The notes under the pieces are model-generated. The model was not told where the DNA came from. It did not search any database and saw only the letters and a program-made list of their open reading frames with translations. Of a DNA stretch of 64,000 nt, positions 4,118-44,592 are shown piece after piece; within the stretch, counting starts at the first letter, position 1, and the number at the start of each line of letters is the position of its first letter. Where the stretch lies: positions 434,001 to 498,000 of the forward strand of contig NZ_BDAP01000002.1 in NCBI RefSeq assembly GCF_001598915.1, in the 5' to 3' direction. The position numbers were made by a program, and so were the translations under genes. Origin of the DNA: Williamsia muralis NBRC 105860. GTDB taxonomy: Bacteria > Actinomycetota > Actinomycetes > Mycobacteriales > Mycobacteriaceae.

Positions 4118-4137
4118 CAGTCCCACTGGCCGGAATC
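4118..4137 (+). promoter_or_regulatory. GTCTC-type dyad element, copy A
   Basis: CAGTCCCACTGGCCGGAATC matches the repeated island element less strongly than the other copies. It shares a longer block with the copy at 44573, including CAGTGAC-n-CAGCGC on its left. It lies between the MFS start and the lipase start. Confidence 0.45.
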
Positions 4138-4240
4138 GGATGTTGTTCGGCGCTCCGAATCGTCGCCGGGGCGGCTTGGAGGAGACAGATGAGTCGCTGA
4201 GCCGGGCGACGTGTGATGCGGGACGTCCGATGGAAAGGCA

Positions 4241-4260
4241 GGTCTCGCTCACCGGGACTG
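4241..4260 (+). promoter_or_regulatory. GTCTC-type dyad element, copy B
   Basis: GGTCTCGCTCACCGGGACTG is one of the best copies of the repeated element. It ends 56 bp before the lipase ATG. The remainder of 3955-4316 shows no gene. Confidence 0.6.
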
Positions 4261-4316
4261 TTGTGATCCCGAAGGGTGGGCGCTGTCACAGTGCCTGCAT
4301 GAAAAGAGGCGCACAT

Positions 4317-5531
4317 ATGAGCGAAATCGTTGCCGCACTGCATCGCCGGAAGTCCACGCCCGTCCGATGGTCGACGCTGGCCACCGCTGCAGTGATCACC
4401 TCGGCAGTGGTTTCCTGCTCGTCCGGCACAGACGATGGTTCGAAAGGCGATATGGCGCCGGTGAAAGCAGGCCGAGTGTTGTCCGCGGCCGTGGTCGACG
4501 GACCGGTTGCTCTCCGAGATGCGGCCCAGACCAAGTTGATCACGTACTCGTCCGAAGACGCGAGTGGGAACGCCATCGTGGTGTCCGGAACGGTTGCGGT
4601 ACCGAGAACTCCCGCCCCGGCCGGGGGTTACCCGGTGATCAGCTGGGCGCACGGAACCACCGGCGTGGCAGATGCGTGCGCACCGTCCGCGGCTTTCGAC
4701 GGCGGTCCGACCCAGGCGTATCTCACCGAAGTCGATGCCGCTTTAAATGATTGGCTGAGTAAGGGCTTTGCCGTGGTTCGCACCGACTACGAAGGTCTGG
4801 GTACTCCGGGGGTCCATCCCTATGTCAACGCCGAATCGGAGGTGAACGCGCTCACCGACATCGTGCGGGCAGCACGTGACCTCGACCAGTCGATCGGGAC
4901 AGACTGGTACGCAGTCGGCCACAGTCAGGGCGGCCAGGCCGCATTGTTCGCCGCCGCAGACGCTCCCGAACGTGCACCGGAGCTCGATCTGCGAGCTGCC
5001 GCGGCCATCGCGCCCGGGAGTGGACTCGATCGACTGCCGGAGTACTTCAAATCGGGTGTGCCCGGAATCGCTGCAGCGCAGTCATTTCTCCCGCTGATAC
5101 TCCTCGGTGCACAAGCAGCCGATCCGTCGATTCGTCCCGAGGACCTGCTGACCGATCAGGCTCGTCCGCTCCTTGACTCCGCCAGGACCGGCTGCCTGGA
5201 CGACATCCGCCGCGTGCCACCGGTGGTGGACGGCCAGGTGTTCCGGGCCGATGCCGACCTCGGTCCGTTGACGGACTACATGACGAAGCAAGAGCCCGCG
5301 GCGGTGAAAGTGGTTGTGCCGACGATGATCGCTCAAAGCTCCACCGACGCGGTGGTGCCGAAATCCGGCACCGATGTCCTGGTCGACACCCTGTGTGCTC
5401 GAGGCAACCCGATCGACTACCGACTGTACGAGGGCGCCGACCACCGCCAGACCATCGGCGCCTCGTTGGGTGACATCCAGTCTTTCGTCTCCGCGGTGAA
5501 AACCGGGGCCCAGGCAGTCGACGGCTGCTGA
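4317..5531 (+). CDS. Secretory lipase-family (LIP) alpha/beta hydrolase, probable lipoprotein
   Basis: A 404-residue protein starting at the ATG at 4317, preceded by AAGAGG. A hydrophobic segment ends in the lipobox-like VVSC (Cys34), suggesting a membrane-anchored lipoprotein. The hydrolase core has WAHGTTG (about 110-116), the nucleophile elbow GHSQGG (Ser203), a late Asp in SSTDAVVP and a His in GADHRQ, as in actinobacterial secretory lipases. It could hydrolyse lipid or steroid esters outside the membrane; the substrate is unknown. Copy B of the dyad element in its promoter suggests co-regulation with the steroid island. Confidence 0.8.
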   Translation: MSEIVAALHRRKSTPVRWSTLATAAVITSAVVSCSSGTDDGSKGDMAPVKAGRVLSAAVVDGPVALRDAAQTKLITYSSEDASGNAIVVSGTVAVPRTPAPAGGYPVISWAHGTTGVADACAPSAAFDGGPTQAYLTEVDAALNDWLSKGFAVVRTDYEGLGTPGVHPYVNAESEVNALTDIVRAARDLDQSIGTDWYAVGHSQGGQAALFAAADAPERAPELDLRAAAAIAPGSGLDRLPEYFKSGVPGIAAAQSFLPLILLGAQAADPSIRPEDLLTDQARPLLDSARTGCLDDIRRVPPVVDGQVFRADADLGPLTDYMTKQEPAAVKVVVPTMIAQSSTDAVVPKSGTDVLVDTLCARGNPIDYRLYEGADHRQTIGASLGDIQSFVSAVKTGAQAVDGC

Positions 5532-5537
5532 CCGACA

Positions 5538-5572
5538 ACCCTGCCTGCCCGCCCGGGGCGGGCAGGCAGGGT
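5538..5572. terminator. Bidirectional hairpin terminator
   Basis: A 35-nt palindrome with arms ACCCTGCCTGCCCGC and GCGGGCAGGCAGGGT fills the space between the convergent lipase and SDR stop codons. Confidence 0.8.
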
Positions 5573-5578
5573 CAGAGG

Positions 5579-6514
5579 TCACTGCAGAGCGCCTTCGTTG
5601 GTGGCCAGGGCGGGCTTCTCCAGTTCGGCCACTCCGTAGGCGGCGTATGTCTCGTACTCTCCACGGCCGGAGAAGTACGGGGTCAGCCGGCCCGCCAGCT
5701 CCTCGGCCGAGAATGCGGAACCGACTGCGTCGAAACGGTTCTCCACCTCAGGGGCGTGCATCAGCGCGACCATCTTGCCGTACACGACAAACACCTGACC
5801 ATTGATCTCGTCGGATGCGGGGGAGGCGAGATAGCGCACGAGGGTGGCTACGCGCTCCGGCGCGAGCGGATCGCTGTCGGCGGCACCATTGTTCTCGCCG
5901 AAGGCATCAGCGGTCATTGCGGTGCGTGCCCGGGGGCAGATGGCGTTGGCGCGCACCCCGTAGCGTGACAAACCCTGTGCGGTGGAGAGTGTCAGCGCGG
6001 TGATGCCCGCCTTTGCCGCCGAGTAGTTCGGCTGGCCGGCCGAGCCGAACAGAAAAGCCTCTGACGACGTGTTGATGACACGCCCGAACACCGGTTGACC
6101 GGCGTTCTTGCTCGCTTCGCGCCAATGGGCGGCGGCGGCGCGCGAGGTGGCGGCGTGGCCTTTGAGGTGCACTCGGATCACGTCGTCCCAGTCGGATTCG
6201 GTCAGATTGAAGATCATCTTGTCCCGCAGAATCCCGGCGTTGTTGACCAGGATGTCGAATGACCCGAATCGGGTGACCGCCTCCTGGACAAGGCGCTCGC
6301 CCATCGACCAGTCCGAGACGTCACCGGTGAGCGCGACAGCTCGACCGCCGGCGGACGTGATCTCCTCGACCACGAGATGCGCGTTGTCACCCATGTCGTT
6401 GACGACCACGGCGGCGCCCGCCTCGGCCAGCGCCAGGGCTTCCGCGCGTCCGAGACCCGCGCCCGCGCCCGTGACCACGGCGACGCGGCCGGCCAGATCG
6501 AGTGTGTCCACCAT
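5579..6514 (-). CDS. Hsd4A-like short-chain dehydrogenase (3-hydroxyacyl-CoA / hydroxysteroid)
   Basis: A 311-residue SDR with the N-terminal cofactor motif TGAGAGLG, VNDMGDN after beta-2, NNAG, and the active-site YSAAK with an upstream Ser. The length and the VNDMG-type beta-2 loop match the peroxisomal multifunctional enzyme type 2 group and actinobacterial Hsd4A (Rv3502c-like), which oxidises the side-chain 3-hydroxyacyl-CoA of steroids. In this island it would follow hydration by the MaoC protein 25969-26838 and feed the thiolase 22529-23692. It has its own promoter with a KstR-like palindrome 32 bp before the start. GAGGAG precedes the ATG. Confidence 0.8.
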   Translation of the reverse strand: MVDTLDLAGRVAVVTGAGAGLGRAEALALAEAGAAVVVNDMGDNAHLVVEEITSAGGRAVALTGDVSDWSMGERLVQEAVTRFGSFDILVNNAGILRDKMIFNLTESDWDDVIRVHLKGHAATSRAAAAHWREASKNAGQPVFGRVINTSSEAFLFGSAGQPNYSAAKAGITALTLSTAQGLSRYGVRANAICPRARTAMTADAFGENNGAADSDPLAPERVATLVRYLASPASDEINGQVFVVYGKMVALMHAPEVENRFDAVGSAFSAEELAGRLTPYFSGRGEYETYAAYGVAELEKPALATNEGALQ

Positions 6515-6545
6515 GTTGAGCTCCTCAGTTCGTTGGCTACTGCAA

Positions 6546-6571
6546 CGAAACTAGTATTCATTCTAGTTTCG
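6546..6571. promoter_or_regulatory. KstR-like operator S1
   Basis: Perfect 9-bp arms CGAAACTAG and CTAGTTTCG flank TATTCATT. The central 20 bases match S2 (16/20) and S3 (15/20). It sits between the SnoaL gene stop and the SDR start, in the SDR promoter. Confidence 0.7.
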
Positions 6572-6581
6572 ACGCAAGTGG

Positions 6582-7088
6582 TCAACCTTCATGTTCGGCT
6601 CGGACCCCCTCGGCCAGCAGTGCGCGTGCGTCTGGGCGGCCGTCGAGCAGACGCCCGGTCCGGTATGTCACCTTCCACGTGCCGTCGATCTTGCTCAGCT
6701 CCCAGCGGGTCGCGGTCACCCGCAGGACCGTGAAGTGGTCACCATCGCGAATGATCAACTGCGACTTGCATGTTGCGACCGCTGTGTCACCATCCACGAT
6801 GATGTGACCCGGCTCCAACACGTGCCCGCAGCCGCCATCTATCCATGCCTGGTGAGCCTGCGATCTCACCATCGCCGTGATCTCGGCATGTCCGCGCATG
6901 ACACCGGTGTCCACGTCGTAGACGCCATCTTCGGTCCACAGGCGGGCCACGGCCTCGGCCGAACCGCTGTCGACGGCCGGGCCGTAGGCCGTCATCAACT
7001 CGGTGATCGCCAGTTTGTCCTCGAGCAGGGCGACGCGCTCGGTGAGTGTGTGGATGAGAAGAGCCACGTCAGGGGTGGTGTCGGTCAT
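6582..7088 (-). CDS. SnoaL/NTF2-fold protein, possible bile-acid 7alpha-dehydratase-like
   Basis: A 168-residue NTF2-like (SnoaL_4) protein. Tyr35 and Asp40 are five residues apart, and His89 follows at the spacing seen in the bile-acid 7alpha-dehydratase BaiE (Tyr30, Asp35, His83 as I recall them). The family also includes ring hydroxylases, isomerases and scaffolds, so this pattern is suggestive only. A 7alpha-dehydratase would fit a cholate-like substrate. The gene is divergent from the IclR gene and precedes the Hsd4A-like gene, which has its own operator. Confidence 0.6.
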   Translation of the reverse strand: MTDTTPDVALLIHTLTERVALLEDKLAITELMTAYGPAVDSGSAEAVARLWTEDGVYDVDTGVMRGHAEITAMVRSQAHQAWIDGGCGHVLEPGHIIVDGDTAVATCKSQLIIRDGDHFTVLRVTATRWELSKIDGTWKVTYRTGRLLDGRPDARALLAEGVRAEHEG

Positions 7089-7162
7089 GGATCAGCCTTT
7101 CGTTTTGTTGGCCGGAGAGAGCGGGGATTCGCAGCGCTGCCGACAGCGGCTGCTGCGACACG

Positions 7163-7182
7163 CTTCCCAGTCACCGGGACTG
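7163..7182 (+). promoter_or_regulatory. GTCTC-type dyad element, copy C
   Basis: CTTCCCAGTCACCGGGACTG shares its 3' half exactly with copy B. It lies in the divergent region between the SnoaL gene and the IclR gene, 70 bp before the latter's start. Confidence 0.5.
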
Positions 7183-7193
7183 CTGTTAGTATT

Positions 7194-7213
7194 ACAAGAA
7201 TTCATTTCAGTTT
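7194..7213 (+). promoter_or_regulatory. KstR-like operator S2 (imperfect)
   Basis: ACAAGAATTCATTTCAGTTT matches S1 at 16 of 20 positions. It lies 39 bp before the IclR start and so could place this regulator under the TetR protein. Confidence 0.5.
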
Positions 7214-7252
7214 TGTCCTGGATCTCGGATTCGACCAGGTTATGGAGGCTCG

Positions 7253-8146
7253 ATGACGGTCATTGATTCCGGTGCTGCACACCCCCGCTCTGCCGGTAAG
7301 CGGGATCTGCCGCCCTCGATGCTCGAACGAATGACGCTCATCCTCGATTCATTCGGCGGCCCTGCGTCGCGGCTGACTCTCGAAGAAGTGGCCGGACGCA
7401 CGCAACTGCCGCGATCGACGGTGCACCGCATCCTCGACCAACTGGTCCGGTTGAACTGGGTGGAACACGCCTCGTTCGGCTATCGACTCGGCCGGCGGTC
7501 GATGGGTCTCGGCGGAGGGGACGGTGGTCATGCACAGGTGCGTGCGGCTGCCGCGCCTCTGTTGCACGATCTGCACATGCAGACCGGCATGGTGGTCCAT
7601 CTGTCGGTCCTCGACGGGGGCGAGAGCATCTACCTCGACAAGGTCGGTGGACGGTTCGCTGCATCGCTGCCTTCACGAGTTGGTGGACGCGGGCCGGCGT
7701 ATTCCACCGCCGGCGGAAAGTCGATGCTCGCCTGGCTCGATCCGGAGCGCGTCGACGCGATCTATCAGCAGCGGCTGAATCGGTGCACCGACCACACGAT
7801 CCCTGATCTGCCGACCCTCCATCAGGAACTCAACCGCATCCGACAGCGCAGCGGATTGGCATTCGAGCGCGGTGAGTCCGTGCGCGGCGCCGCGTGCGTC
7901 GGAGTGGCGGTCCGCGGATACGACGGCCCGGTTGCGGCGATCTCGCTCTGCGGAGACGCACGGACCGCTCAGCTCAAACGGGTTGCCCCCCTGGTCGTGC
8001 GGGCGGTCCGGGAAGTCACGCGCACCCTGTATCCCGAGGCCGGTACCACTCGCCGGGGGCGCAAAACCCCTCCGATGCCGGACAACACGTGGTCGGCCGA
8101 GGCCTTGGACCGACTGCTCGCCGTGCAGTCGGGGCAGTGGCTGTAG
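7253..8146 (+). CDS. IclR-family transcriptional regulator
   Basis: A 297-residue protein with an N-terminal winged helix-turn-helix (about 28-85; LTLEEVAGRTQLPRSTVHRI) and a C-terminal IclR effector domain (GGKSMLAWL, then a GAACVGVAVRG segment). IclR proteins commonly activate or repress aromatic and steroid catabolic operons in actinobacteria. It is one of only two regulators inside the island. A dyad element and a KstR-like site lie in its promoter, so it is a good candidate reader of the GTCTC-type element and may be controlled by the TetR protein. A polar tail after residue 260 is unusual but not informative. Confidence 0.88.
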   Translation: MTVIDSGAAHPRSAGKRDLPPSMLERMTLILDSFGGPASRLTLEEVAGRTQLPRSTVHRILDQLVRLNWVEHASFGYRLGRRSMGLGGGDGGHAQVRAAAAPLLHDLHMQTGMVVHLSVLDGGESIYLDKVGGRFAASLPSRVGGRGPAYSTAGGKSMLAWLDPERVDAIYQQRLNRCTDHTIPDLPTLHQELNRIRQRSGLAFERGESVRGAACVGVAVRGYDGPVAAISLCGDARTAQLKRVAPLVVRAVREVTRTLYPEAGTTRRGRKTPPMPDNTWSAEALDRLLAVQSGQWL

Positions 8147-8180
8147 TCGATTCGCCACGCGCGATGAACCAGTCGATGCT

Positions 8181-8684
8181 TCAGGCACGCAAAAGCTTTG
8201 AAGCCGCGTCGAGTCCGAATCCGCCGCGGAAGAAGATCATCGGACGCTCTTCGGTGACCGACTCCAACCCGAGGATTCGGCCGATCACCACGTCGTGATC
8301 GCCTGCGGTGTGCACGTCGTGGATCTCGGCATGTACCCGCATGAGCACACCTGGGAGCGACGGCGTCGCCCACTTGCTCAGATCCCAGTCGAGTCCCTCG
8401 TACTTGCGCCCGTTGCTCGATCCGAATCGGGAACACAGATCGGTTTGGTTCTCGTGCAGCACGTTGATGCTGAACCGGCCCGTGTTCCGGATACGGGGCC
8501 AAGACCGCCCGCGGTGGTCGGCGCAGAACAGGATCAGGGGAGGATCAAGCGACACCGAGGCGAAGGACTGGCAGGCGAAACCGATAGGTCCCTCGTCGTC
8601 CATACCGGCGACCACGGTGACTCCGCTTGCGAACTGACCCAGTGCCTTTCGCATGTCGGTCTGCGACATCGTTTCGATCGACAT
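8181..8684 (-). CDS. hsaB: HsaB-like flavin reductase of the 3-HSA hydroxylase
   Basis: A 167-residue flavin reductase of the HpaC/HsaB type (FASGVTVV near 18-25, SVSLDPPLILFC about 44-55). It would supply reduced flavin to HsaA for 4-hydroxylation of 3-HSA in steroid ring degradation. GGAGG precedes the ATG at 8684. It is transcribed away from the hsaD operon. The shared 183-bp promoter region carries two dyad elements exactly 50 bp apart, so both directions are probably controlled together. Confidence 0.85.
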   Translation of the reverse strand: MSIETMSQTDMRKALGQFASGVTVVAGMDDEGPIGFACQSFASVSLDPPLILFCADHRGRSWPRIRNTGRFSINVLHENQTDLCSRFGSSNGRKYEGLDWDLSKWATPSLPGVLMRVHAEIHDVHTAGDHDVVIGRILGLESVTEERPMIFFRGGFGLDAASKLLRA

Positions 8685-8758
8685 CCGAACACCTCCGGTT
8701 CTGTTGTGTGGCCGATGATGAGGTGAGGCTATTGCGGCCGGCCTCGGCAGCCGTACGA

Positions 8759-8778
8759 GGTCTCGCTCAGCGGAAGCG
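8759..8778 (+). promoter_or_regulatory. GTCTC-type dyad element, copy D
   Basis: GGTCTCGCTCAGCGGAAGCG, 74 bp upstream of the hsaB start and exactly 50 bp (about five helical turns) from copy E. Confidence 0.6.
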
Positions 8779-8808
8779 CCAGAGTCCGGCCGGCCCTGGC
8801 GTGCTGGG

Positions 8809-8828
8809 GATCTCGCTCAACGAGACCT
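8809..8828 (+). promoter_or_regulatory. GTCTC-type dyad element, copy E
   Basis: GATCTCGCTCAACGAGACCT contains the perfect inverted repeat TCTCG-5-CGAGA (8811-8825). It ends 39 bp before the hsaD ATG. Confidence 0.65.
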
Positions 8829-8867
8829 GGGCTGTGGATGAGGCGCCGGGCTGGCAACGTTCGGGCC

Positions 8868-9737
8868 ATGACGACAGACGTGAGCTACGAGCGCAGTCTG
8901 CGGGAGTTGAACACCGATCTCGGGATGCTCCGGTTCCATGAGGCAGGCGAGGGCCCACCACTGCTGCTGCTCCACGGCTCCGGGCCCGGGGTGACCGGGT
9001 GGAGGAACTATCGGGGAGTGCTTCCCGAACTGGCCGAGCATTTCCGTTGTTTGGTACTGGAGTTCCCCGGATTCGGGGTCAGCGATCCTGGCGACGGCCA
9101 CCCGATGTCGATGGCGCAGTCCGCCGTCGGACTCTTTCTCGATGGTCTCGAGATCGATACCGCGCACATGATCGGGAACTCGATGGGAGGGATCGTCGCC
9201 ACCAAGGTCGCGATCGATGAACCCAGCAGGGTCGACAAGTTGGTCACCATCAGTGGAATGGGCAAGGCCACCTTCTCTCCGGGGCCCAGTGAGGGAATCA
9301 AGCTCCTGATGGAGTTCACCGACAACCCCACCCGCGAAGGATTGCGCCGCTGGCTCCGGTCGATGGTCTATGACCCGGCTGTGATCACCCCTGAACTGAC
9401 CGACGAGCGCTGGGAGCTGGCGACCGAGCCGACAACCCTCGAGATCGCTCGACGGATGTACAGCAGCAAGGCCTTTGCCGCCTCCATGGTCGCGGCGGCG
9501 CGCTCAGACGCGCCGCCGTATTGGTCGCAGCTCGGCAAGGTGAAAGCCCCGACGCTGCTGACCTGGGGGCGAGACGACAGGGTGAGCCCGGTCGACATGG
9601 CAATGCTGCCGATGCGAGACATCCCGAACAGCGAGCTGCACGTATTCCCCAAGTGCGGGCACTGGACGATGATCGAGGCCCGAGATGCCTGGGTCCCTGC
9701 GGTGCTTGCCTTTCTCACCCGCAAGGACAGGACGTAG
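8868..9737 (+). CDS. hsaD: HsaD-like meta-cleavage product hydrolase
   Basis: A 289-residue alpha/beta hydrolase of the MhpC/BphD/HsaD group. It has HGSGPGVTGW (about 36-45), the nucleophile elbow GNSMGG (Ser105), WGRDDR (Asp236/237) and KCGHW (His264/265). It would hydrolyse the C-C bond of 4,9-DSHA, separating rings C/D from the dienoate that HsaE takes. It is the first gene of the hsaD-kstD-hsaE-hsaG-hsaF-hsaA-hsaC operon; kstD starts 2 bp after its stop. The ATG at 8868 is chosen because the family begins near here and the upstream extension runs into the operator region. Confidence 0.88.
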   Translation: MTTDVSYERSLRELNTDLGMLRFHEAGEGPPLLLLHGSGPGVTGWRNYRGVLPELAEHFRCLVLEFPGFGVSDPGDGHPMSMAQSAVGLFLDGLEIDTAHMIGNSMGGIVATKVAIDEPSRVDKLVTISGMGKATFSPGPSEGIKLLMEFTDNPTREGLRRWLRSMVYDPAVITPELTDERWELATEPTTLEIARRMYSSKAFAASMVAAARSDAPPYWSQLGKVKAPTLLTWGRDDRVSPVDMAMLPMRDIPNSELHVFPKCGHWTMIEARDAWVPAVLAFLTRKDRT

Positions 9738-9739
9738 AC

Positions 9740-12228: not shown

Positions 12229-12238
12229 GGAAGAACCC

Positions 12239-13141: not shown

Positions 13142-13173
13142 ACCGCCCGAACTGCTCTTCCTAAGGAACACTC

Positions 13174-14202
13174 ATGCCCTACAGTCCTGATCTCGACATC
13201 CGAATCACCGACTCGTCGTTGCGCGACGGGTCCCACGCAAAGCGCCACCAATTCACTGTCGACCACGTCAAGGCGGTCGTCGCCGCCCTCGATGGTGCGG
13301 GTGTTCCGGTGATCGAGGTGACCCATGGTGATGGTCTGGGTGGGTCGTCGTTCAATTATGGGTTCTCGAAGACTCCTGAGCAGCAGTTGATCCGCGCGGC
13401 GGTCGAGACGGCGACGACAGCGAAGATCGCGTTCTTGATGTTGCCTGGTCTGGGGATCAAGGACGATATTCGGGCGGCGCAGGACAACGGTGCGCAGATT
13501 TGTCGTATCGCGACGCATTGCACCGAGGCCGATGTGTCGATGCAGCATTTCGGGTTGGCGCGTGAGTTGGGGCTAGAGACCGTGGGGTTCTTGATGATGT
13601 CGCACAGTCAGCCTCCGGAGGTGCTCGCGAAGCAGGCGCGGATCATGACCGATGCGGGTTGTCAGTGTGTGTACGTGGTGGATTCGGCCGGCGCACTGGT
13701 TCTCGACGACGTCAGCGATCGAGTGTCTGCACTGGTATCAGAGCTGGGGGACGACGCTCAGGTCGGTTTCCACGGCCACGAGAACCTCGGACTGGGCGTT
13801 GCGAACTCCGTCCTCGCGGTGAAGGCCGGTGCGCTGCAGATCGACGGTTCCACCCGCCGGTTCGGGGCCGGGGCGGGCAACACCCCGGTGGAGGCATTCG
13901 CCGCGGTGACCGAGAAGCTCGGCATCCGAACGGGTATCGACACCCTCAAGATGTTCGACGCCGCCGAGGACGTCGTACGGCCGATCATGGACGGCGAGTG
14001 CCTCCTGGACCGGATGTCGCTGACGATGGGATACGCAGGCGTCTACTCGAGTTTCCTCAAGCACGCCGACAAACAGGGCGAACGCTATGGGGTCTCCGGC
14101 GCGGAGATCCTCATCGAGGCAGGTCGCCGCAAGCTCGTCGGGGGACAAGAAGACCAGCTGATCGAGATCGCGATCGGTCTCGCGGAAACAACCTCTGCCT
14201 AG
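13174..14202 (+). CDS. hsaF: HsaF-like 4-hydroxy-2-oxovalerate aldolase
   Basis: A 342-residue DmpG/BphI/HsaF aldolase. Metal-site signatures are [15 protein letters not shown] at the N-terminus and [11 protein letters not shown] in the middle. It splits the 4-hydroxy-2-oxo acid to pyruvate and an aldehyde that passes to HsaG. The protein looks intact, but the DNA between about 13300 and 13690 has clearly different codon choice from the rest of the gene and its neighbours (see the separate entry), suggesting an exchanged segment. Confidence 0.92.
13297..13690 (+). other. Codon-usage block inside hsaF, possible recombination patch
   Basis: Within 13321-13689 all 12 Gly codons are GGT or GGG (none GGC or GGA), 13 of 15 Ala codons are GCG, and TTG, TAT, CAT, ATT, CGT and GAT are frequent. 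The flanks of the same gene use GGC, GCC, CTC, GTC and GAC freely. Both edges are sharp and in frame, so the block looks like a homologous replacement from a relative with other codon preferences or from a paralogue. Confidence 0.6.
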
Positions 14203-14238
14203 GCGTTCGCCGGGTACCTATAGAAAGCCGAGAACATC

Positions 14239-15417: not shown

Positions 15418-15439
15418 ATCTGACACGAAAGGTTCACCC

Positions 15440-16366: not shown

Positions 16367-16388
16367 CCACCTGCCCGAGTCTGACCAA

Positions 16389-16460: not shown

Positions 16461-16469
16461 AGTTGTGGA

Positions 16470-17261: not shown

Positions 17262-17308
17262 GGACGTACTCCTTCGGGATGATGCGGACGAAAGTGTGGA
17301 ACGGACTG

Positions 17309-18788: not shown

Positions 18789-18808
18789 GGTCTCACTAAC
18801 CGAGACCT
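18789..18808 (+). promoter_or_regulatory. GTCTC-type dyad element, copy F
   Basis: GGTCTCACTAACCGAGACCT has perfect arms GGTCTC/GAGACC (18789-18794 and 18802-18807). It is in the divergent promoter of kshA and the second hsaA-like gene. Confidence 0.65.
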
Positions 18809-21676: not shown

Positions 21677-21696
21677 GGTCCCACTCACCGGGAAAA
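21677..21696 (+). promoter_or_regulatory. GTCTC-type dyad element, copy G
   Basis: GGTCCCACTCACCGGGAAAA, between the divergent kstD copy two and TetR genes, 40 bp before the TetR ATG. Confidence 0.6.
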
Positions 21697-21736: not shown

Positions 21737-22384
21737 ATGATGTTGGTGTCGCATGACGGGAGATGGACGTTGCCGAGAATTGGCGAGGCGAGGGACGCGG
21801 CGGAACCCAGTTCCGACGATCAGCGGGCCCGTCATGTGCGGATGCTGGAGGCCGCGGCCGAACTCGCGACCGAGAAAGAGCTGGCGCGGGTTCAGATGCA
21901 CGAGGTGGCCAAGCGTGCGGGTGTCGCGATCGGCACGCTCTACCGGTACTTTCCGTCCAAGACGCATCTGTTCGTCGCCGTCATGGTCGAGCAGATCGAT
22001 CAGATCAGGGACAACCTCGACAGGCGGCCACCCGCGGGTCAGGGTCCGGATGCGATCTACGAGGTACTGGTCCGAGCGACCCGTGCGCTGCTTCGCCGCC
22101 CCGCGCTCTCCACTGCGATGATCCAGTCGAACAGCACGGCCAACGCCGCCACCGTGCCGGACGCGGGGAAGGTGGACCGCGTGTTCCACCAGATCTTGCT
22201 CGAGGCCGCGGGCATCGAGAATCCGTCCGAGGACGATTCCACCGCGGTCCGGTTGATGATGCAGCTCTGGCTGGGCGTCATCCAGTCGTGCCTTAACGGC
22301 CGCATCTCCATCCCGGATGCCGAGTCGGACATTCGTACCGCGTGCGACCTCCTGCTGACGCGGTTGTCCACGAACTTGTACTGA
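21737..22384 (+). CDS. KstR-like TetR-family regulator
   Basis: A 215-residue TetR protein whose DNA-binding region (VQMHEVAKRAGVAIGTLYRY) is very close to that of KstR, the repressor of cholesterol genes. Its operators are probably the CTAG-type palindromes S1-S4 in the island, one of which overlaps its own stop codon and another lies before the following thiolase operon. KstR-family repressors respond to steroid acyl-CoA intermediates. Start is the ATG at 21737 or 21740. The name KstR3 used for the cholate-cluster regulator of Rhodococcus may apply, but orthology is not shown here. Confidence 0.88.
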   Translation: MMLVSHDGRWTLPRIGEARDAAEPSSDDQRARHVRMLEAAAELATEKELARVQMHEVAKRAGVAIGTLYRYFPSKTHLFVAVMVEQIDQIRDNLDRRPPAGQGPDAIYEVLVRATRALLRRPALSTAMIQSNSTANAATVPDAGKVDRVFHQILLEAAGIENPSEDDSTAVRLMMQLWLGVIQSCLNGRISIPDAESDIRTACDLLLTRLSTNLY

Positions 22385-22456: not shown

Positions 22457-23692
<1,236 letters not shown>

Positions 23693-30127: not shown

Positions 30128-30147
30128 CGGGCTGCTCATCGGGACTG
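30128..30147 (+). promoter_or_regulatory. Weak GTCTC-type element, copy H2
   Basis: CGGGCTGCTCATCGGGACTG matches mainly in its right half (TCATCGGGACTG against TCACCGGGACTG). It lies 66 bp from copy H, on the side of the ligase start. Confidence 0.3.
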
Positions 30148-30193: not shown

Positions 30194-30213
30194 GTTACCA
30201 CTCACCGAGACTT
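30194..30213 (+). promoter_or_regulatory. GTCTC-type dyad element, copy H
   Basis: GTTACCACTCACCGAGACTT, between the divergent ligase and OYE operons, 65 bp before the OYE ATG. Confidence 0.6.
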
Positions 30214-33184: not shown

Positions 33185-33236
33185 CTCCACGCCCCGACTC
33201 GACCTTGTGCCCCTGAAATTCTCGAGGAGAACCACG

Positions 33237-38014: not shown

Positions 38015-38850
38015 TGAAGAGCTGGGAGAACGCGGGCCGGTGGCGAGGCGTCGACCTCGGTACACGCACCGTGTCCTACGACGAACGCGATGCGATCATC
38101 TACGCGTTGGCCTTGGGCGCGAAAGCAACCGAGCTGGACCTGGTGTTCGAGGACCAGCTGAGGGTGCTGCCGACGTTCGCCCTCACCCTCGCGCAGTGGG
38201 CCCCGGACGAGCTCGGGTCGCGGGGTGCGTTCGATACCCGCACGGCACTGCATGGGTCACAACAGCTGACGGTAATGGCACCTTTGCCACGCAGCGGCGA
38301 CGTGACACTGTCGGCGTCGGTCGGCAATGTGTGGGACAAGGGCGCCGCAGCGGTCTTCGAGGTCGAGGTCCGCAGTGAGTACTTCATCGCGACGTGGTCG
38401 TTGTTCGCACCGGGCGCAGGAGGTTTCGGGGGCGAGCGAGGACCGGCGAGACCGGTTGATGCGCAGGGTGATCCGGCCTTCGAATCCGTGTTGCACACGC
38501 GTGAGAACCAAGCGGCACTCTATCGACTCACCGGCGACCGGCACCACATCCACATCGACCCCGACGCGTCGGAGCGAATCGGTCAGCCGCGGCCGATCAT
38601 GCACGGACTGTGCACCCTGGCCGCCGGAGCGCTGGAATGCGCCCGTCTGACCGGCGCACATCCGGCAGCCCTGGTGAGTCTCGACGGCCGATTCGCAGCG
38701 GCACTCCATCCCGGTGAGTCCCCGGTGTTACGGGCGTGGGGCGATGGCTCGGATCTCACGTTCGAACTCGTCAAGAACGGACGGCCGGCGATCTCCGGAG
38801 GCAGGGTGTCGTTTGCCGCCACGACAGGGGTTTCGAGCGCGTCCCGTTGA
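38014..38850 (+). CDS. Second double-hotdog MaoC hydratase
   Basis: A 278-residue hydratase-2 family protein. Motif YRLTGDRHHIHIDPDA, then PIMHGL. It is similar in layout to the MaoC protein at 25969 but is encoded at the end of the igr-like operon, starting at a GTG that overlaps the Ltp2 stop (TAGTG). Its substrate may be the other side-chain intermediate or a ring-derived enoyl-CoA. Confidence 0.83.
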   Translation: MKSWENAGRWRGVDLGTRTVSYDERDAIIYALALGAKATELDLVFEDQLRVLPTFALTLAQWAPDELGSRGAFDTRTALHGSQQLTVMAPLPRSGDVTLSASVGNVWDKGAAAVFEVEVRSEYFIATWSLFAPGAGGFGGERGPARPVDAQGDPAFESVLHTRENQAALYRLTGDRHHIHIDPDASERIGQPRPIMHGLCTLAAGALECARLTGAHPAALVSLDGRFAAALHPGESPVLRAWGDGSDLTFELVKNGRPAISGGRVSFAATTGVSSASR

Positions 38851-38930
38851 GCGGGAGCGGCGGCGCACCGAAGCGCCCGTTCATCTAGTTTCGGCGAGTC
38901 GTGTCCACGCAGGGAGAGGCAACACCGGCG

Positions 38931-39986
38931 ATGACAACTGCTGTATCTGAACATAATTCGCGGTCAGTGATGGTGACCGTGGCTGCCGTCGTCGAGGAGA
39001 CGGCCGAAGCGCGGTCGCTGGTGTTCGACGTGCCCGCCGACCGTAGCGACGACTTCAGATACAAGCCGGGGCAATTCCTCACCCTGCGTATCCCCAGCGA
39101 CCGGACGGGGTCGGTTGCCCGGTGCTATTCACTGGCCAGTTCGCCGCTGACCGACGACCGACCGAAGGTCACCGTCAAGCGCACCGACGGTGGATACGGA
39201 TCGCACTGGCTGTGCGACAACGTCAACGTCGGTGATGTCCTCGAAGTGCTGCCCCCGTCCGGCGTCTTCACCCCGGCGAATCTGGACGACGACTTGCTGC
39301 TGTTCGCCGCGGGCAGTGGGGTGACGCCGGTGATCTCCATTCTCAAGACCGCGCTGAGTGGAGGCGCCGGCAAAGTTGTTCTGCTCTATGCGAATCGGAA
39401 CGAGAACTCGATCATCTTCCGGCAAGAACTGCACGACCTCGCAACGCGATTCGCCGACAGGTTGCTGGTGCTGCACTGGCTGGAGAGTGTGCAGGGCCGG
39501 CCGACCGTCGACCAGCTTGTGCCCCTTTGCTCGGCATTCGGGAACCACCGGGTGTTCATGTGCGGTCCCAAACCGTTCATGGACATGGTGCACAAGGCAA
39601 CCGCGCGATCGGGCATCGCCCGGGGCCGAGTGCACGCCGAGGTCTTCACATCACTGTCCGGCGATCCCTTTGCCGAGGTGGAGGTGCCGCAGCTGTCCGA
39701 GGGTGACCACGGCGATGCGCCGACGGTCTCGGTGAGTCTCGACGGTGAAGCGCACGAGCTGAGCTGGCCCCGGTCGGCCACGCTTGTCGACGTTCTGCTG
39801 TCCAAGGGACTGGATGTGCCGTACTCGTGCCGCGAAGGCGAATGTGGTTCCTGTGCATGCACTCTTGTCGACGGCGAGGTCGACATGGGTGATACGTCGA
39901 TCCTCGATGAGGAGGACATCGCGGACGGCTACATCCTGGCCTGTCAGGCCCGCCCGCTCAGCGAGCACCTGACCATCGAGTTCTGA
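38931..39986 (+). CDS. kshB: KshB-like ferredoxin reductase of the 9alpha-hydroxylase
   Basis: A 351-residue reductase with an FAD domain (RCYSLASSP), an NAD domain (GSGVTP, CGPKPFM) and a C-terminal plant-type 2Fe-2S domain (CREGECGSC and a final Cys). The same order and size occur in KshB (358), which passes electrons to KshA. The ATG at 38931 follows GGGAGAGG; an in-frame GTG at 38901 is possible. An 80-bp gap separates it from the igr-like operon. Confidence 0.88.
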   Translation: MTTAVSEHNSRSVMVTVAAVVEETAEARSLVFDVPADRSDDFRYKPGQFLTLRIPSDRTGSVARCYSLASSPLTDDRPKVTVKRTDGGYGSHWLCDNVNVGDVLEVLPPSGVFTPANLDDDLLLFAAGSGVTPVISILKTALSGGAGKVVLLYANRNENSIIFRQELHDLATRFADRLLVLHWLESVQGRPTVDQLVPLCSAFGNHRVFMCGPKPFMDMVHKATARSGIARGRVHAEVFTSLSGDPFAEVEVPQLSEGDHGDAPTVSVSLDGEAHELSWPRSATLVDVLLSKGLDVPYSCREGECGSCACTLVDGEVDMGDTSILDEEDIADGYILACQARPLSEHLTIEF

Positions 39987-39998
39987 TACAGCTCTACC

Positions 39999-40838
39999 TC
40001 ACCCGGTGACGCGTGCTGCATTCCCGGCGTCGACCGGAATGACCGTACCGCTGATGTGCGCACTGGCCTTGTCCGTGAGGAACAGCACCACCCGGGTGAT
40101 CTCGTCGGCATCGAGCCACGGCACCGGCTGGGCGTGCAGTGAGGCGAAGACGGGTTCGACGTCCTTGTCGGTCGGATGGTCGAGGTCGGGCCGCATCATC
40201 GCGTACAGGGCGTCGTTGTGAATCATCGGAGTCGAGATGTTGCCCGGGGCAATTGCATTCACGGTGATGCCATGCGATGCGAGATCAAGGGCAGCGCTCT
40301 TCGTCAGGCCGATGACGCCCCACTTGGACGCGGCGTAGCCGACCATGCTGACGTTCCCCGCTCGGCCGAGCATGGAGGAGATCGTCACGATTCGACCGTA
40401 ACCGCGCTTGATCATCCCCGGTGAGACTGCGCCGACGGTGTTGAAGACACCGGTGAGGTTGGACGAGATGACTTCTGACCATTGCTGCTCGGTCATCGAC
40501 TGGACGGACGCTGCGACCGAGACGCCGGCGTTGGCCACTGCGATGTCGATCCGTCCCAGTTCTGCTTCGGCCCGGCCGACCAGAGCGTCCATCGCCGGGC
40601 GATCGGCAGTGTCAGCTTTGACCGCAATGCACTGTCGTCCGGTGGCTTTCACAAGACGCACGGTCTCGTCGAGGTCTGCTTCGGTGGCCAGCGGGTAAGC
40701 GACCGAAGGGCTGTCTTCACATCTGTCACACACCACGATGTCAGCGCCGCGTTCGGCGAAGGCGATGGCGTGGCTACGGCCCTGGCCGCGGGCGCCGCCG
40801 GTGATCAGGGCGACCTGTCCGTCGAAACGCTCTGTCAT
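39999..40838 (-). CDS. SDR resembling the mycofactocin-coupled family
   Basis: A 279-residue SDR whose N-terminus contains GGARGQGRSHA, the hallmark of mycofactocin-associated SDRs, which hold NAD tightly and pass electrons to the redox cofactor mycofactocin. YAASK with an upstream Ser is the active site. It is the last gene of a four-gene leftward operon and may oxidise one of the nuclear hydroxyls of the steroid. No mycofactocin biosynthesis gene is present in the window. Confidence 0.78.
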   Translation of the reverse strand: MTERFDGQVALITGGARGQGRSHAIAFAERGADIVVCDRCEDSPSVAYPLATEADLDETVRLVKATGRQCIAVKADTADRPAMDALVGRAEAELGRIDIAVANAGVSVAASVQSMTEQQWSEVISSNLTGVFNTVGAVSPGMIKRGYGRIVTISSMLGRAGNVSMVGYAASKWGVIGLTKSAALDLASHGITVNAIAPGNISTPMIHNDALYAMMRPDLDHPTDKDVEPVFASLHAQPVPWLDADEITRVVLFLTDKASAHISGTVIPVDAGNAARVTG

Positions 40839-40884
40839 GTGCTGACTCCTTGTTGTTCGAGAGCTGACGCAGTGGTTTGCAGAC

Positions 40885-41628
40885 CTACCGCAGTTTGATG
40901 ATGCCGCCGTCTGCCATCAGAGTCTGCCCGGTCATGTACTTGGAATCCTCGGAAGCAAGAAAGACGACGATGGGTGCGATATCGGTCTCAGGGTCCCCGA
41001 TACGTCCGAGGGGCACCTTGGCAGCCGATTCGGCGGCCCGCTCGGGGAAGGCCTTCTGCCAGGCCATGACACCCTCGGTGGCCGCAAACGGGCAGATCAC
41101 GTTCACGCGGATTCCGTCGGCGGCCCACTCGTTGGCGGCGACCCGGCTCACGCCCCGAATGGCTTCTTTGGCTGCGGCATAGGACGTCTGGGTCGGCATC
41201 CCTTCCAAGCCCGACCCGGAGGCGAAGTTGATCACCGAACCCGACGCAGCTTTCAGCTGTTCGTAGCAGGCCTGCATGAGGTGCACCGTCGGGTAGAACC
41301 CGGTGTTGAAGGACAACTCGAACATCTCGGCGGTGTGGTCGACCAGCGACGCCTGGCGCGACGCATGGGCGTTGTTGACCAAGATGTCGACCGAACCGAA
41401 ATGCGACACGGCGGTGTCGCGGATGGTCACCGCAGCTTGTGGTTTCGAGATGTCCACATTCAGGAAGCGTGCCGATGGGCCGAGGTCGCGTTCCAATTCG
41501 TGGCCGCGCTTGTCGTCGATGTCGGCGAACAGGACGTTAGCGCCCTGCTCGACGAACACGCGGGTGATAGCGCTTCCGATCCCGCCCGCGCCGCCAGTGA
41601 CAATCGCCGTCTTTCCCTGCAGTTTCAT
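40885..41628 (-). CDS. Short-chain dehydrogenase/reductase
   Basis: A 247-residue SDR with TGGAGGIG, NNAHASR, YAAAK and a C-terminal MTGQTLMADGG segment. The ATG at 41628 follows GGAGGACAG and overlaps the upstream LLM gene stop (ATGA). It is closely similar in layout to the SDRs at 27505 and 43557. Substrate unknown. Confidence 0.8.
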   Translation of the reverse strand: MKLQGKTAIVTGGAGGIGSAITRVFVEQGANVLFADIDDKRGHELERDLGPSARFLNVDISKPQAAVTIRDTAVSHFGSVDILVNNAHASRQASLVDHTAEMFELSFNTGFYPTVHLMQACYEQLKAASGSVINFASGSGLEGMPTQTSYAAAKEAIRGVSRVAANEWAADGIRVNVICPFAATEGVMAWQKAFPERAAESAAKVPLGRIGDPETDIAPIVVFLASEDSKYMTGQTLMADGGIIKLR

Positions 41629-42506
41629 GGTCTGTCCTCCGAAGTGAAGTCGATGTCGAGCTCGATGCAGGCCTCGTGCAACGCCTCGAGCTGGTCGCAG
41701 TAATGGGACACGCTGGTGGCCGAGATACTGACGCTCACGATGGTGGCCCCCATCTCCCTGCGCCGCTCCAGCGATCTGAGGGCACCCGACCGGTTGCCGA
41801 GTGGGTCGATGTGACTCGCGGGGAGGACCACCGTGAAGTCGTGGGGCAGCTCGGCGGCCTCGAGGAGCCGCTCGAGGTCCAGCAGCGGCAGGCCGAACGG
41901 AACCCATCCGTCTCCGAGCGTGACGGCACGGCGCAGGGAACGGGGAGTGCGTCCGCCGATCCACATCGGAACGTGCGGCTGTACTGCGTGGGGCTCGACG
42001 ACAACATTGCCGAAGTTGTAATGAGGGCCGTGGTAGACGGGGTTTGGACGAGAGAGCGAAGCCCGCAGCGCGGCGAGGGCGTCGTCGGCGATGCGACCCC
42101 GGCCGGCGAAGTCTGCACCGAGCGCGTCGAACTCTTCGCGCAAGCTGCCCACGCCGAGGCCCAGCACGAGGCGGCCGCCGCTGACCAGATCGAGGGTGCC
42201 GTACCGCTTGGCGATCTCGAGGGGATGGTGATAGCCGAGGACAAGCACCTGGGTGGCGAGTTTGATCCGAGACGTGTGCGCCGCAACGAAACCGAAGGTG
42301 GCGAGCGGGTCCCAGTAGGTACCCCCGCGTTCGGCGGCGACGTCGATGGGGACAGCGACATGCTCGCTGCACGTGAGGTGGTGGTAGCCGAGTCGATCGG
42401 CCTTCTGGGCGATACGGATCAGCTCTGCGGGCCCGGCGTCACGCTCCCATGCGGATGCGGCGGCCGGGTGCTGGACGACGATGGGTGATGTGATCCCGAT
42501 ACGCAT
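41625..42506 (-). CDS. LLM-class flavin/F420-dependent oxidoreductase
   Basis: A 293-residue luciferase-like monooxygenase-family protein (EHVAVPID, ATQVLVLGYHHPLEIAKR, GLGVGS, PMWIGG). It may use FMN or F420. In a steroid island it may oxidise or reduce a keto or hydroxyl group, but the substrate cannot be told. It lies between two SDR genes of the same operon. Confidence 0.78.
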   Translation of the reverse strand: MRIGITSPIVVQHPAAASAWERDAGPAELIRIAQKADRLGYHHLTCSEHVAVPIDVAAERGGTYWDPLATFGFVAAHTSRIKLATQVLVLGYHHPLEIAKRYGTLDLVSGGRLVLGLGVGSLREEFDALGADFAGRGRIADDALAALRASLSRPNPVYHGPHYNFGNVVVEPHAVQPHVPMWIGGRTPRSLRRAVTLGDGWVPFGLPLLDLERLLEAAELPHDFTVVLPASHIDPLGNRSGALRSLERRREMGATIVSVSISATSVSHYCDQLEALHEACIELDIDFTSEDRP

Positions 42507-42511
42507 GGCGG

Positions 42512-43324
42512 TCAGCGCACGCCTTCCAGTGTCACCGAGCGGTTGCGGACACCGCTGTGGGTGGCGACATACCGAGCGGGGTACTCACCACCGCCGTGGA
42601 CGGCGAGGTCTGCACCGTTGACGTAGGACGCCCATCGGCTCGCGAGGAACAGGCAGGCGTTGGCGATGTCGTCGGGGACGGCCATCCGGCCCATCGGGAG
42701 TGTGTTGATGACGGCTGCCCCGCCGTCGTCGCCGTATACCGAGGCCGCGCTCTCGGTGCGAATGAGACCCGTGGTGATGTGATTGATGCGCACGGCCGGC
42801 GCCCATTCCAGAGCCAGGGCTTTGGTGAGGACGAGCAGGCCGGCCTTGGCGGCGCTGTATGCGGCAGTGCCCGGCTGGGGGTCGTGGGCCGAGACACTGC
42901 CGATGTTGATGATGGAACCGCCCTCGGGATTGGCTTGCATCACCGAGTTCGCGGCTTGGGCGGCGTAAAAGGGCCCGAGGAGATTGAGTGCGAGAATCTT
43001 CTCGACAAATCGCGGCGAGACGGTGGCGGCGTCGGCATCGGGGGAGCCGCCGGCATTGTTCACCAGCACGTCGAGCCCACCGTGTGCCGCGACGGTGTCG
43101 TCGATCAAACCGGCTGCGTCCGAAGGATCCCGGACATCGGTGGCGCGGAACGATGCCGTTCGGCCGGCGTGGTGCGGCAGCGTGGCGGGGGTGTGCCGAC
43201 CACAGACCATCACGTCGGCACCGGCCTCTAAGAACGCCGTTGCCACGACGAATCCGATGCCTTTGGTGCCGCCCGTCACGACGACACTTCTGCCTGAGAA
43301 GTCCCAGTCGGTGCGCGGATCCAT
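42512..43324 (-). CDS. Short-chain dehydrogenase/reductase, first gene of leftward operon
   Basis: A 270-residue SDR with TGGTKGIG, NNAGG and YSAAK. The ATG at 43324 is used because GGAAGG lies about 7 nt before it. It heads the SDR-LLM-SDR-SDR operon that starts from the divergent region with two dyad elements. Confidence 0.78.
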   Translation of the reverse strand: MDPRTDWDFSGRSVVVTGGTKGIGFVVATAFLEAGADVMVCGRHTPATLPHHAGRTASFRATDVRDPSDAAGLIDDTVAAHGGLDVLVNNAGGSPDADAATVSPRFVEKILALNLLGPFYAAQAANSVMQANPEGGSIINIGSVSAHDPQPGTAAYSAAKAGLLVLTKALALEWAPAVRINHITTGLIRTESAASVYGDDGGAAVINTLPMGRMAVPDDIANACLFLASRWASYVNGADLAVHGGGEYPARYVATHSGVRNRSVTLEGVR

Positions 43325-43400
43325 CAGCATCCCTTCCCAGTCGGTGCGCTGTGCGGCGCCTGACACGGACGCTAGATGTTGTGGTGGTCGTGGTTGGTCG

Positions 43401-43420
43401 CAGTCCCGCCCAGCGGGACG
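43401..43420. promoter_or_regulatory. GTCTC-type dyad element, copy J
   Basis: CAGTCCCGCCCAGCGGGACG includes the perfect inverted repeat GTCCCGC-3-GCGGGAC (43403-43419). It lies between two divergent SDR genes. Confidence 0.5.
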
Positions 43421-43427
43421 TGAGCAG

Positions 43428-43447
43428 GGTCTCGGTGAACGGGAGTG
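43428..43447 (-). promoter_or_regulatory. GTCTC-type dyad element, copy I
   Basis: Read on the minus strand it is ACTCCCGTTCACCGAGACCC. It is oriented towards the leftward SDR operon, whose start is 104 bp away. The rest of 43325-43556 holds no gene. Confidence 0.6.
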
Positions 43448-43556
43448 CAGCACTGCCGGCAGACCTCGGCCATTACCGTCCTGGCCCGTGAGATCTCGCG
43501 CCCCTGCCCGCGCAGCACGTGAACAGATCTGACAGAACCTTGAAAGGAAGTGCAGC

Positions 43557-44321
43557 ATGGGAACACTCGACGGCAAGGTGGCACTCATAACCGGGGCAGG
43601 TCAGGGGATCGGGCAGGGCATCGCGCTCGCCTTGGCCAAGGAGGGCGCTGCGATCGCCGTGGCCGGCCGAACGGAGTCCAAGCTGCTCGACACCTGTGCG
43701 ATGCTGACCGATCTCGGCGCGCGTGGTGAACCGATCGTCTGCGACGTGAGCGATCGCGAGGACATCGCGCGCGCGGTCGGTGGCACGGTGGCAGCTCTCG
43801 GGTCGGTCGACATCCTGGTGAACAACGCCAACGACTGCAAGCCGGGCCCGATCCTGTCGATCGTCGACGAGGACTACGAACGGTCGTTTGCCACCGGGCC
43901 GCTCGCGACCCTTCGGATGATGCAGCTGTGCCATCCCCACATGAAGGCACGTGGCGGCGGCGGCGTCATCATCAATCTCGTGACCTCAGCGGCAGTGCGC
44001 TGGGACGCAAGCAATTACGGCGCCTACGGGTCGATCAAAGAAGGCATGCGGTCGCTCACGCGGGCGGCAGCATGCGAGTGGGGTCGTGACGGAATCAGAG
44101 TCCTGTCGGTCGCCCCGCACGCCGCGTCGCCCGCCCTCGACCGGTGGATGGAGAGGAATCCCGAAGAAGCAGCTGCGTTTGTGGCGGGTATCCCGCTCGG
44201 CCGTGTAGGTGACCCCGAGAGCGACATCGGCCGGGCCATCGTCTTCCTGGTGGGGCCAGATGCGGGGTATCTCACCGGAGCGACCATTCCACTCGACGGT
44301 GGTCAATCACGTTGGGGATGA
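43557..44321 (+). CDS. Short-chain dehydrogenase/reductase
   Basis: A 254-residue SDR with TGAGQGIG, NNANDC, and YGSIK preceded by a Ser/Thr-rich VTSAAV. It starts at 43557 after AAAGGAAG. Divergent from the four-gene SDR operon, with which it shares the J/I elements. The likely role is oxidation of a steroid hydroxyl; not provable here. Confidence 0.8.
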   Translation: MGTLDGKVALITGAGQGIGQGIALALAKEGAAIAVAGRTESKLLDTCAMLTDLGARGEPIVCDVSDREDIARAVGGTVAALGSVDILVNNANDCKPGPILSIVDEDYERSFATGPLATLRMMQLCHPHMKARGGGGVIINLVTSAAVRWDASNYGAYGSIKEGMRSLTRAAACEWGRDGIRVLSVAPHAASPALDRWMERNPEEAAAFVAGIPLGRVGDPESDIGRAIVFLVGPDAGYLTGATIPLDGGQSRWG

Positions 44322-44534
44322 ACCACATCGGCCGGCGACGATGACAGGGCTCCTCATCTGCAGCAGAGTACCGACAGTATCGGCCGACAACCGCAGCTCG
44401 GTGACGTCTGTCCAAGGTGAAGAAGTGAACCACCGTCCGGTGCCCTGACCGTCACTGATGTAGGTGACCGCCACGGTGGACATCATCCAGTCCCCGACGG
44501 TTCGCGAGACGCGGGAGCTGAGCCGAGAGCGCAT
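44307..44534 (-). pseudogene. Uncertain 75-residue ORF, possible gene remnant
   Basis: This leftward ORF starts 40 bp from the orphan dyad element K and overlaps the end of the neighbouring SDR gene. Its composition (Trp, Met, Tyr and Asp well represented) looks more protein-like than most shadow frames, but no domain is recognised and there is no clear ribosome-binding site. The rest of 44322-44622 shows nothing else. Confidence 0.2.
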
Positions 44535-44572
44535 ACCGCAATGATGCAGTGACCCAGCGCGCAGGTGTTGGA

Positions 44573-44592
44573 CAGTCTCACTGAACGGAAGC
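44573..44592. promoter_or_regulatory. GTCTC-type dyad element, copy K (orphan)
   Basis: CAGTCTCACTGAACGGAAGC. Together with CAGTGAC-n-CAGCGC on its left it resembles the block at copy A over about 45 bp. It lies between two convergent genes, with no obvious target except the uncertain ORF at 44307-44534. Confidence 0.45.

Follow-up and report, generated by a model that had tools for sequence, protein, structure and literature searches.

Little is known about the regulation of bile-acid degradation, for which a 2021 review names a KstR homologue at the cholate cluster of R. jostii RHA1 (PMC8399759; this and the other articles cited by PMC number are covered here in part, and statements on them refer to those parts). 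In Nocardioides simplex VKM Ac-2033D, the motif Lcin1, TCCCGGT[C/G]ACCGGGA, was predicted in cluster E (cholate cluster), where it sits before cholate-catabolism orthologues induced by lithocholate (PMC7593942). A dyad with the same core recurs in a 64,000-bp stretch of the Williamsia muralis NBRC 105860 genome (contig NZ_BDAP01000002.1, positions 434,001 to 498,000), called the window in the following. This dyad is a 17-bp odd palindrome, about KTCYCRSTSASYGRGAM, which is located at a fixed distance ahead of many gene starts of a steroid island that also encodes an IclR-family regulator (Table 1).

The Lcin1 core is compatible with the window matrix at every position, and the 11 window sites of at least 15 bits differ from it by 1-5 mismatches over 15 positions, five of them by no more than 2, in an island with casG and casI. 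The motif itself is therefore already known, in print as Lcin1 with another reader in mind, contrary to the first-pass annotation of the window, which knew of no published motif like it. As far as could be seen, the assignment to IclR via genomes without KstR3, the 37/38-bp geometry without a -35 element and the conserved pair of sites D and E are new; PMC7593942, in its covered part, neither assigns the motif to an IclR nor describes paired sites or a promoter geometry. In the literature covered on IclR and cholate or steroid degradation, which does not extend to the supplementary regulon tables of PMC8222616 or to Mohn et al. 2012 (RHA1 cholate cluster), no IclR is assigned to the motif, and under the name Lcin1 nothing further on the subject was found beyond PMC7593942.

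Three other systems are comparable. The IclR group-1 operators (Suvorova and Gelfand 2021, PMC8222616) resemble the dyad in being 17-bp odd palindromes with a YCR...YGR core and fitting contact residues, but the dyad has C/G at positions 10/22 instead of the T/A of the GTT-11-AAC subgroup, and its pairs are mostly 49-50 bp apart instead of 18-22. In Pimelobacter simplex, a steroid-responsive island likewise has TetR and IclR genes (SRTF1 and SRTF2) beside ketosteroid dehydrogenases; there, SRTF1 binds its own 22-bp palindrome, whereas SRTF2 is without an assigned site in the covered part of the article (PMC7062782). The KstR and KstR2 regulons also consist of palindromic operators dispersed across steroid-catabolic operons (partly covered in PMC8399759), but with another operator sequence, the window dyad lacking the AAC..GTT halves.

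The dyad is interpreted here as the operator of the linked IclR protein, which would control, by activation, a dispersed regulon for the catabolism of the steroid nucleus and of a bile-acid-type side chain, with a probability of about 0.6. That the linked IclR is the reader of the dyad is considered very likely; the figure for the full reading is lower because it also includes activation. The IclR dimer would occupy the dyad, centered near -49, contact RNA polymerase in place of a -35 element and activate transcription together with a ligand, probably an intermediate of the steroid pathway. At divergent gene pairs, either one dyad (casG/OYE) would be used or two, each for one promoter, D serving hsaB and E hsaD, J and I the SDR genes. 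Whether this IclR is, from Williamsia, Rhodococcus and Nocardia to other actinomycete families, a master activator of bile-acid and steroid-nucleus catabolism is an evenly balanced matter; from its fixed position at -49 it would stand in for the -35 element of as many as about ten promoters in a genome, and it would also govern the KstR3 gene. Control would then form a cascade of two tiers, in contrast to that of the cholesterol genes, which KstR and KstR2 repress. The result names a reader other than the KstR homologue and makes a sharp prediction, a spacing-dependent activator, while operator consensus and geometry would let the regulon be listed from sequence in other steroid-degrading actinomycetes. 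As steroid-transforming strains are in industrial use, such a pathway switch is of practical use.

Motif discovery by expectation maximization in 16 intergenic regions of the island, without the motif being supplied, returned sites A-K as the eleven best places, so the repeat described in the first-pass annotation is real. The score of 181.7 compares with 71.6-133.5 in 20 shuffled sets, a gap that is somewhat overstated because the shuffled sets were seeded at half density. Both strands were read in the discovery and the shuffles, which by itself pushes the matrix toward symmetry; direct evidence for symmetry comes from sites E, F and J, which are palindromes as previously noted. A symmetrized 17-bp matrix was then trained on the window. 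At a threshold of 15 bits it gave 11 sites across the window, compared to 0.34 expected, and all of them fall within 4242-44591. Gene starts were taken from a simple codon model. Ten of these are members of the training set and reach 15.1-21.0 bits in leave-one-out scoring, and the eleventh, at 38841, lies outside it.

The earlier list of sites was thus recovered, with site A being weaker (13.9 bits, 12.1 leave-one-out); it had missed the good site at 38841, and a weaker copy placed at 30128 is not among the matches of at least 9 bits. The consensus written at that time was too strict and too asymmetric, finding only 4241 and 18789 with up to three mismatches (shuffle mean 0.04). Most sites are indeed upstream of operons, with the exception of K, which sits 3′ of both flanking genes, and the statement that none lies inside a gene is nearly right, as only the site at 38841 reaches into a predicted gene, sharing the final 10 bases of the one before it. 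The distance of exactly 50 bp between D and E agrees with the matrix scan, and J and I are 26 bp apart.

In the 5.54-Mb genome, 6 of the 15 distinct places with at most one mismatch to GTCYCRCTSANCGRGAC fall in the window, and no out-of-window place from two pattern searches exceeds 17.0 bits (both among the matches listed). The clustering of strong sites in the island and the promoter spacing described below speak against a random genome-wide density and against an unlinked reader. Thirteen of the 16 out-of-window places checked sit in open reading frames (ORFs) with a codon score above 26, as do island sites B, F, J and I, in a weak check that takes the longest ORF, calls these four island sites coding and has one locus (L015) mis-centered. 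After masking of the dyad, a de novo search of the island intergenic regions for a second motif returned composition patterns only. Counts of a loose dyad pattern in 301 genomes did not cleanly separate IclR carriers from the others and were not used as support. In genus g18 (G018, G044, G062, G079, G094, G107, G120, G132), for which no IclR match at 1e-40 was reported, each genome has 9-25 strand matches to the loose pattern, with 0-1 for the reversed-pattern control.

For the analysis of promoter geometry, 313 dyads of at least 15 bits from 202 loci (own-genome and control loci excluded) were clustered at 70% identity, which left 147. Of their 294 directions, 44 show a TANNNT hexamer that begins at a distance of 37 bp (26 cases) or 38 bp (18 cases) from the dyad center, where about 1.3 would be expected; the other offsets have a mean of 0.67 and a maximum of 6. 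With C allowed as first base (YANNNT), 71 of the 147 dyads show the hexamer at 37/38 in at least one direction, compared to 4.3% of random positions, and the signal is lost among weaker matrix matches of 11-13 bits (7/71). These counts were redone from a smaller set of 46 author-chosen loci, which omitted, among others, L103, L104, L109, L110, L241, L247 and L250 and gave 33 of 206 directions (18 at 37, 15 at 38; background 0.43). In the window, 10 of the 12 sites (A, B, D, E, F, H, L, J, I and K) fit the relaxed spacing, each at exactly 37, versus none of 17 out-of-island matches of at least 13 bits at sampled loci of the same genome; the exceptions are C, at 36, and G, with none. The hexamer of K (CATCAT, minus strand) may be due to chance because no gene follows.

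When 33 promoters were aligned on the hexamer, no position between -36 and -30 exceeded 0.26 bits, i.e., there is no -35 element. If the hexamer is the -10 element, the dyad center lies near -49 and its edge near -41. About half of the dyads would then fit the form of an activator-dependent promoter, in which the operator keeps a constant distance to the -10 element downstream of it and a -35 element is missing. The regulator would sit immediately upstream of -35, the place expected of an activator.

The paired sites D and E are widely conserved. A site of at least 14.0 bits is present in each of the 32 distinct hsaB-hsaD intergenic regions, and 31 contain two of at least 11, although several regions come from near-identical relatives and are not 32 independent cases. 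The two sites are 49 or 50 bp apart in 24 regions, 58 or 59 bp in four, and 69, 93 and 149 bp in one each, the last region having a single site. These spacings, in steps of about 10 bp and drawn from few lineages, suggest that the helical phase is kept. Besides the two dyads, mainly short blocks are retained in the aligned regions. One of them, of CTGGCA type with four spellings accepted, lies 33 or 34 bp from the center of E in 27 of 32 sequences despite a variable distance to the start codon. D and E seem to differ in kind: in most of these sequences (e.g., 8760-8776 of the window and L059 11607) the right half of D is GGAA, while E retains GRGA.

In Prescottella, Rhodococcus, Nocardia and a record titled Streptomyces halstedii, dyads precede the same genes in many loci of IclR relatives, namely iclR, the hsaB-hsaD pair, hsaA/hsaC, hsaA2, SDR genes and casG, and several loci around more distant IclR relatives have none. 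In ten further 40-kb islands the pattern is partly repeated, G172 having no dyad and G228 one at the homologous gene hsaA2. The density of sites of at least 15 bits per 10 kb is 1.1 in these ten IclR islands, 1.33 in 29 named loci and 2.27 in 13 loci from the other families within the class (11 sites, 0.1 expected), compared to 0.28 in a control of 20 hsaD-paralogue loci, 17 of which have no IclR match. A separate cluster in G017 (L243) carries three strong dyads at 5860, 7463 and 9202 beside an IclR, each with TANNNT at 37 or 38 and no clear homologue of the island genes nearby.

Genomes with this IclR but without KstR3 bear most directly on the identity of the reader. KstR3 is absent from G022, G096 and G243 (best TetR match 39-40%), from N. 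beijingensis (35%) and from G434 (41%, KstR-type helix), and dyads of 16.6-19.3 bits are located there beside casG, hsaA2-like, hsaE-like or MFS-like genes adjoining IclR. In G022, G096 and G243 an 18.7-bit dyad next to IclR has its center 88 bp upstream of the aligned casG start, with CATGTT at 38 toward casG, and the three dyads of the N. beijingensis locus all have a -10-like hexamer at 37 in at least one direction, so that four KstR3-less genomes retain the hexamer at 37/38. In G434, which belongs to another family, two near-perfect palindromes precede hsaA2/iclR and hsaE; IclR is the sole regulator among the ORFs scanned, no TetR being found in the cluster among 10. In G017, IclR and KstR3 are about 516 kb apart and dyads are present at both loci. 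One dyad precedes iclR in G068, and G395 has two weak dyads (14.8 and 15.5 bits).

The dyad resembles the group-1 consensus GKTYCRYW3RYGRAMC, differing mainly at positions 10/22 and in the center, and the window sites show 3-6 mismatches over 17 positions to GKTYCRYW3-4RYGRAMC, which makes them a variant and not a literal match (0.03% of random 17-mers lie within 3 mismatches, 0.75% within 5). The recognition helix LPRSTVHR, with Arg28, His32 and Arg33 in the register of Table 5 of PMC8222616, fits the motif, a weak indication since paralogues share this helix; these residues were correlated with odd-length motifs and with G/C at 8/24, and more weakly with C at 10 (PMC8222616).

Several observations weigh against an activating IclR as the reader. 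IclR paralogues without such dyads have the same recognition helix, which therefore does not discriminate. The 20-locus control holds 10 sites (1.7 expected), and 8 of its 21 matches of at least 13 bits have YANNNT at 37/38, also where there is no IclR match; the control is not clean, three loci carrying distant IclR homologues (35-40%), and its sites mean that dyads are not confined to IclR-linked loci, though those genomes do carry this IclR. Among the KstR3-less genomes, G152 lacks a dyad in the vicinity of its IclR; of the second IclR loci, that of G243 has none and that of G022 only one of 15.2 bits, before another gene. Neither G434 dyad shows the 37/38 spacing, which among the matches listed from other families occurs, as YANNNT, in only 10 of 32 dyads. 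The iclR promoter deviates from the 37/38 rule not only in the window but also in 7 of the 10 relatives that were checked; in addition, site G lacks a -10 element at this spacing and site K lacks a gene.

Two side observations concern these control loci and paralogues. At L176 4238, L177 2321 and L178 14646, operator-like dyads with -10 spacing are found near hsaD paralogues in genomes that have IclR elsewhere, and these are possibly further regulon members in trans. Upstream of same-helix IclR paralogues in L076, L077, L080 and L082, another conserved palindrome, GTATCACTCAGTGATTC, is located at about 94-194 bp.

Activation has one rival that survives better than the others, although it is unlikely: IclR could read the dyad as a repressor that blocks RNA polymerase beside -35 until a pathway intermediate releases it. 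Many catabolic IclR regulators act as repressors, iclR itself is preceded by a dyad, and the dyad edge at about -41 is near enough to hinder polymerase. However, the dyads cover neither -10 nor +1, and a preferred position fixed within one or two bp without a -35 element fits activation better.

As for the identity of the reader, the second linked regulator, a KstR3-like TetR protein (g20), is a serious competitor that the first-pass annotation had not weighed when it named IclR as the most likely reader, a choice supported by the comparative evidence above. A KstR3-type TetR, with the N. simplex orthologue KR76_18060, was the guess of the Lcin1 authors, resting on induction by lithocholate (PMC7593942), and IclR would then control something else. 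KstR3 nearly always accompanies this IclR: it was detected at 1e-45 in 79 of 301 family genomes, and among genomes with an IclR match below 1e-120 only G277 (74% complete) lies outside the KstR3-positive set. Moreover, a dyad of at least 14 bits precedes kstR3 in 14 of 22 loci, and in N. simplex cluster D, by its gene numbers seemingly the IclR SRTF2 island, KR76_27080 is without a predicted site in the covered part of the source. Against this stand the KstR3-less genomes with dyads beside IclR, and the helix of KstR3, which is almost that of KstR.

The operator of KstR is TNNAACNNGTTNNA, to which the 11 dyads have 4-7 mismatches at 8 fixed positions, sharing at most four, and they do not qualify as KstR/KstR3 operators. 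Another perfect palindrome adjoins kstR3 as a candidate operator of its own. Overall, the reading of the dyad by KstR3 is held to be improbable. A KstR-type pattern gave 13 weak matches (shuffle mean 5.4, largest 14). The one genome with KstR3 and no IclR match at 1e-40 (G043) carries KstR3 on a 4.4-kb contig without a dyad, too little to count. The palindrome TAGAATACATTCTA has a one-mismatch relative at 6552-6565, between g5 and g6; after kstR3, its exact form is present in G106 and a two-mismatch form in G023, G229 and G209.

A chance or composition artefact or a mobile repeat, which the GC-rich palindromic core and the many loose-pattern matches in one genus without an IclR match might suggest, has a negligible probability and was rejected on conservation across genera and the preferred -10 distance, the scores also being far above those of shuffles.

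Table 1. Dyad sites, regulators and selected genes in the window (positions in the window; hexamer distances in bp from the dyad center)
Feature	Position	Strand	Remarks
Site A, dyad GTCCCACTGGCCGGAAT	4120..4136	-	13.9 bits; toward MFS transporter gene g3 (2503-3954, minus); TAGCTT at 37
Site B	4242..4258	+	21.6 bits, strongest dyad; toward g4; CACAGT at 37
g4	in-frame ATG at 4317	+	lipase-like from GHSQGG motif as read by the authors; no NCBIfam match
Site C	7164..7180	+	19.1 bits; upstream of iclR gene; CAGTTT at 36 (one off)
IclR-family regulator, proposed reader	7253..8146	+	best match PcaR/PcaU/PobR subfamily, below curated cut-off; recognition helix LPRSTVHRIL
hsaB-like flavin reductase subunit	8181..8684	-	best match HsaB, below curated cut-off
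Site D	8760..8776	-	18.5 bits; toward hsaB-like gene; TAGCCT at 37; pair with E conserved
Site E	8810..8826	+	19.8 bits; toward hsaD-like gene; CAACGT at 37 (8855-8860); pair with D conserved; fixed distance to CTGGCA block
hsaD-like hydrolase	8868..9737	+	heads gene run to 16366 (kstD-, hsaE-, hsaG-, hsaF-, hsaA-, hsaC-like)
Site F	18790..18806	-	19.4 bits; between kshA-like g17 (minus) and hsaA g18 (plus); TAGCGT at 37 toward g17
Site G	21678..21694		19.5 bits; between kstD-like g19 (minus) and KstR-like gene g20 (plus); no YANNNT at 36-39
KstR-like TetR regulator (KstR3 type), g20, rival reader	21842..22384	+	true start possibly further upstream
Perfect palindrome TAGAATACATTCTA	22468..22481		between kstR3 and g21; candidate KstR3 operator
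Site H	30195..30211	+	17.1 bits; between casG g26 (minus) and OYE-family g27 (plus); TACGGT at 37 toward g27, CATTTT at 37 toward casG
Site L (new)	38841..38857	+	18.9 bits; overlaps last 10 bases of predicted g34; toward kshB-like g35; TAGTTT at 37
Site J	43403..43419	-	18.0 bits; toward minus-strand genes g39-g36 (SDR, luciferase-like); TAGCGT at 37
Site I	43429..43445	+	18.8 bits; toward SDR gene g40; TACCGT at 37
Site K	44575..44591		17.2 bits; between 3′ ends of convergent g40 (plus) and g41 (minus)

Around site K, no promoter target and no small ORF with coding-like codon use were found; it may be a decoy, an antisense start or a relic.

The steroid/cholate-type catabolic island spans about 2.5-45 kb of the window. 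Curated cut-offs were passed by casG (steroid-24-oyl-CoA synthetase), casI, hsaA (g18), the kstD-type g10, an acetaldehyde dehydrogenase and a steroid thiolase, whereas the hsaB-, hsaD-, hsaE- and second hsaA-like genes and the KstR-like TetR are best matches below them. The labels kshA-like (g17) and kshB-like (g35) are the authors' reading of Rieske-type and PaaE-type matches, and the gene at 13174-14202, which was not itself scanned, is presumably hsaF. Among nine genomes of the genus, IclR and the KstR3-type regulator are both present in five and, at the thresholds used, both absent from four, and the island is therefore accessory. The window IclR is 100% identical in a Williamsia muralis locus (L057) and in a record titled Kitasatospora arboriphila NRRL B-24581 (L056), the title of which is probably wrong.

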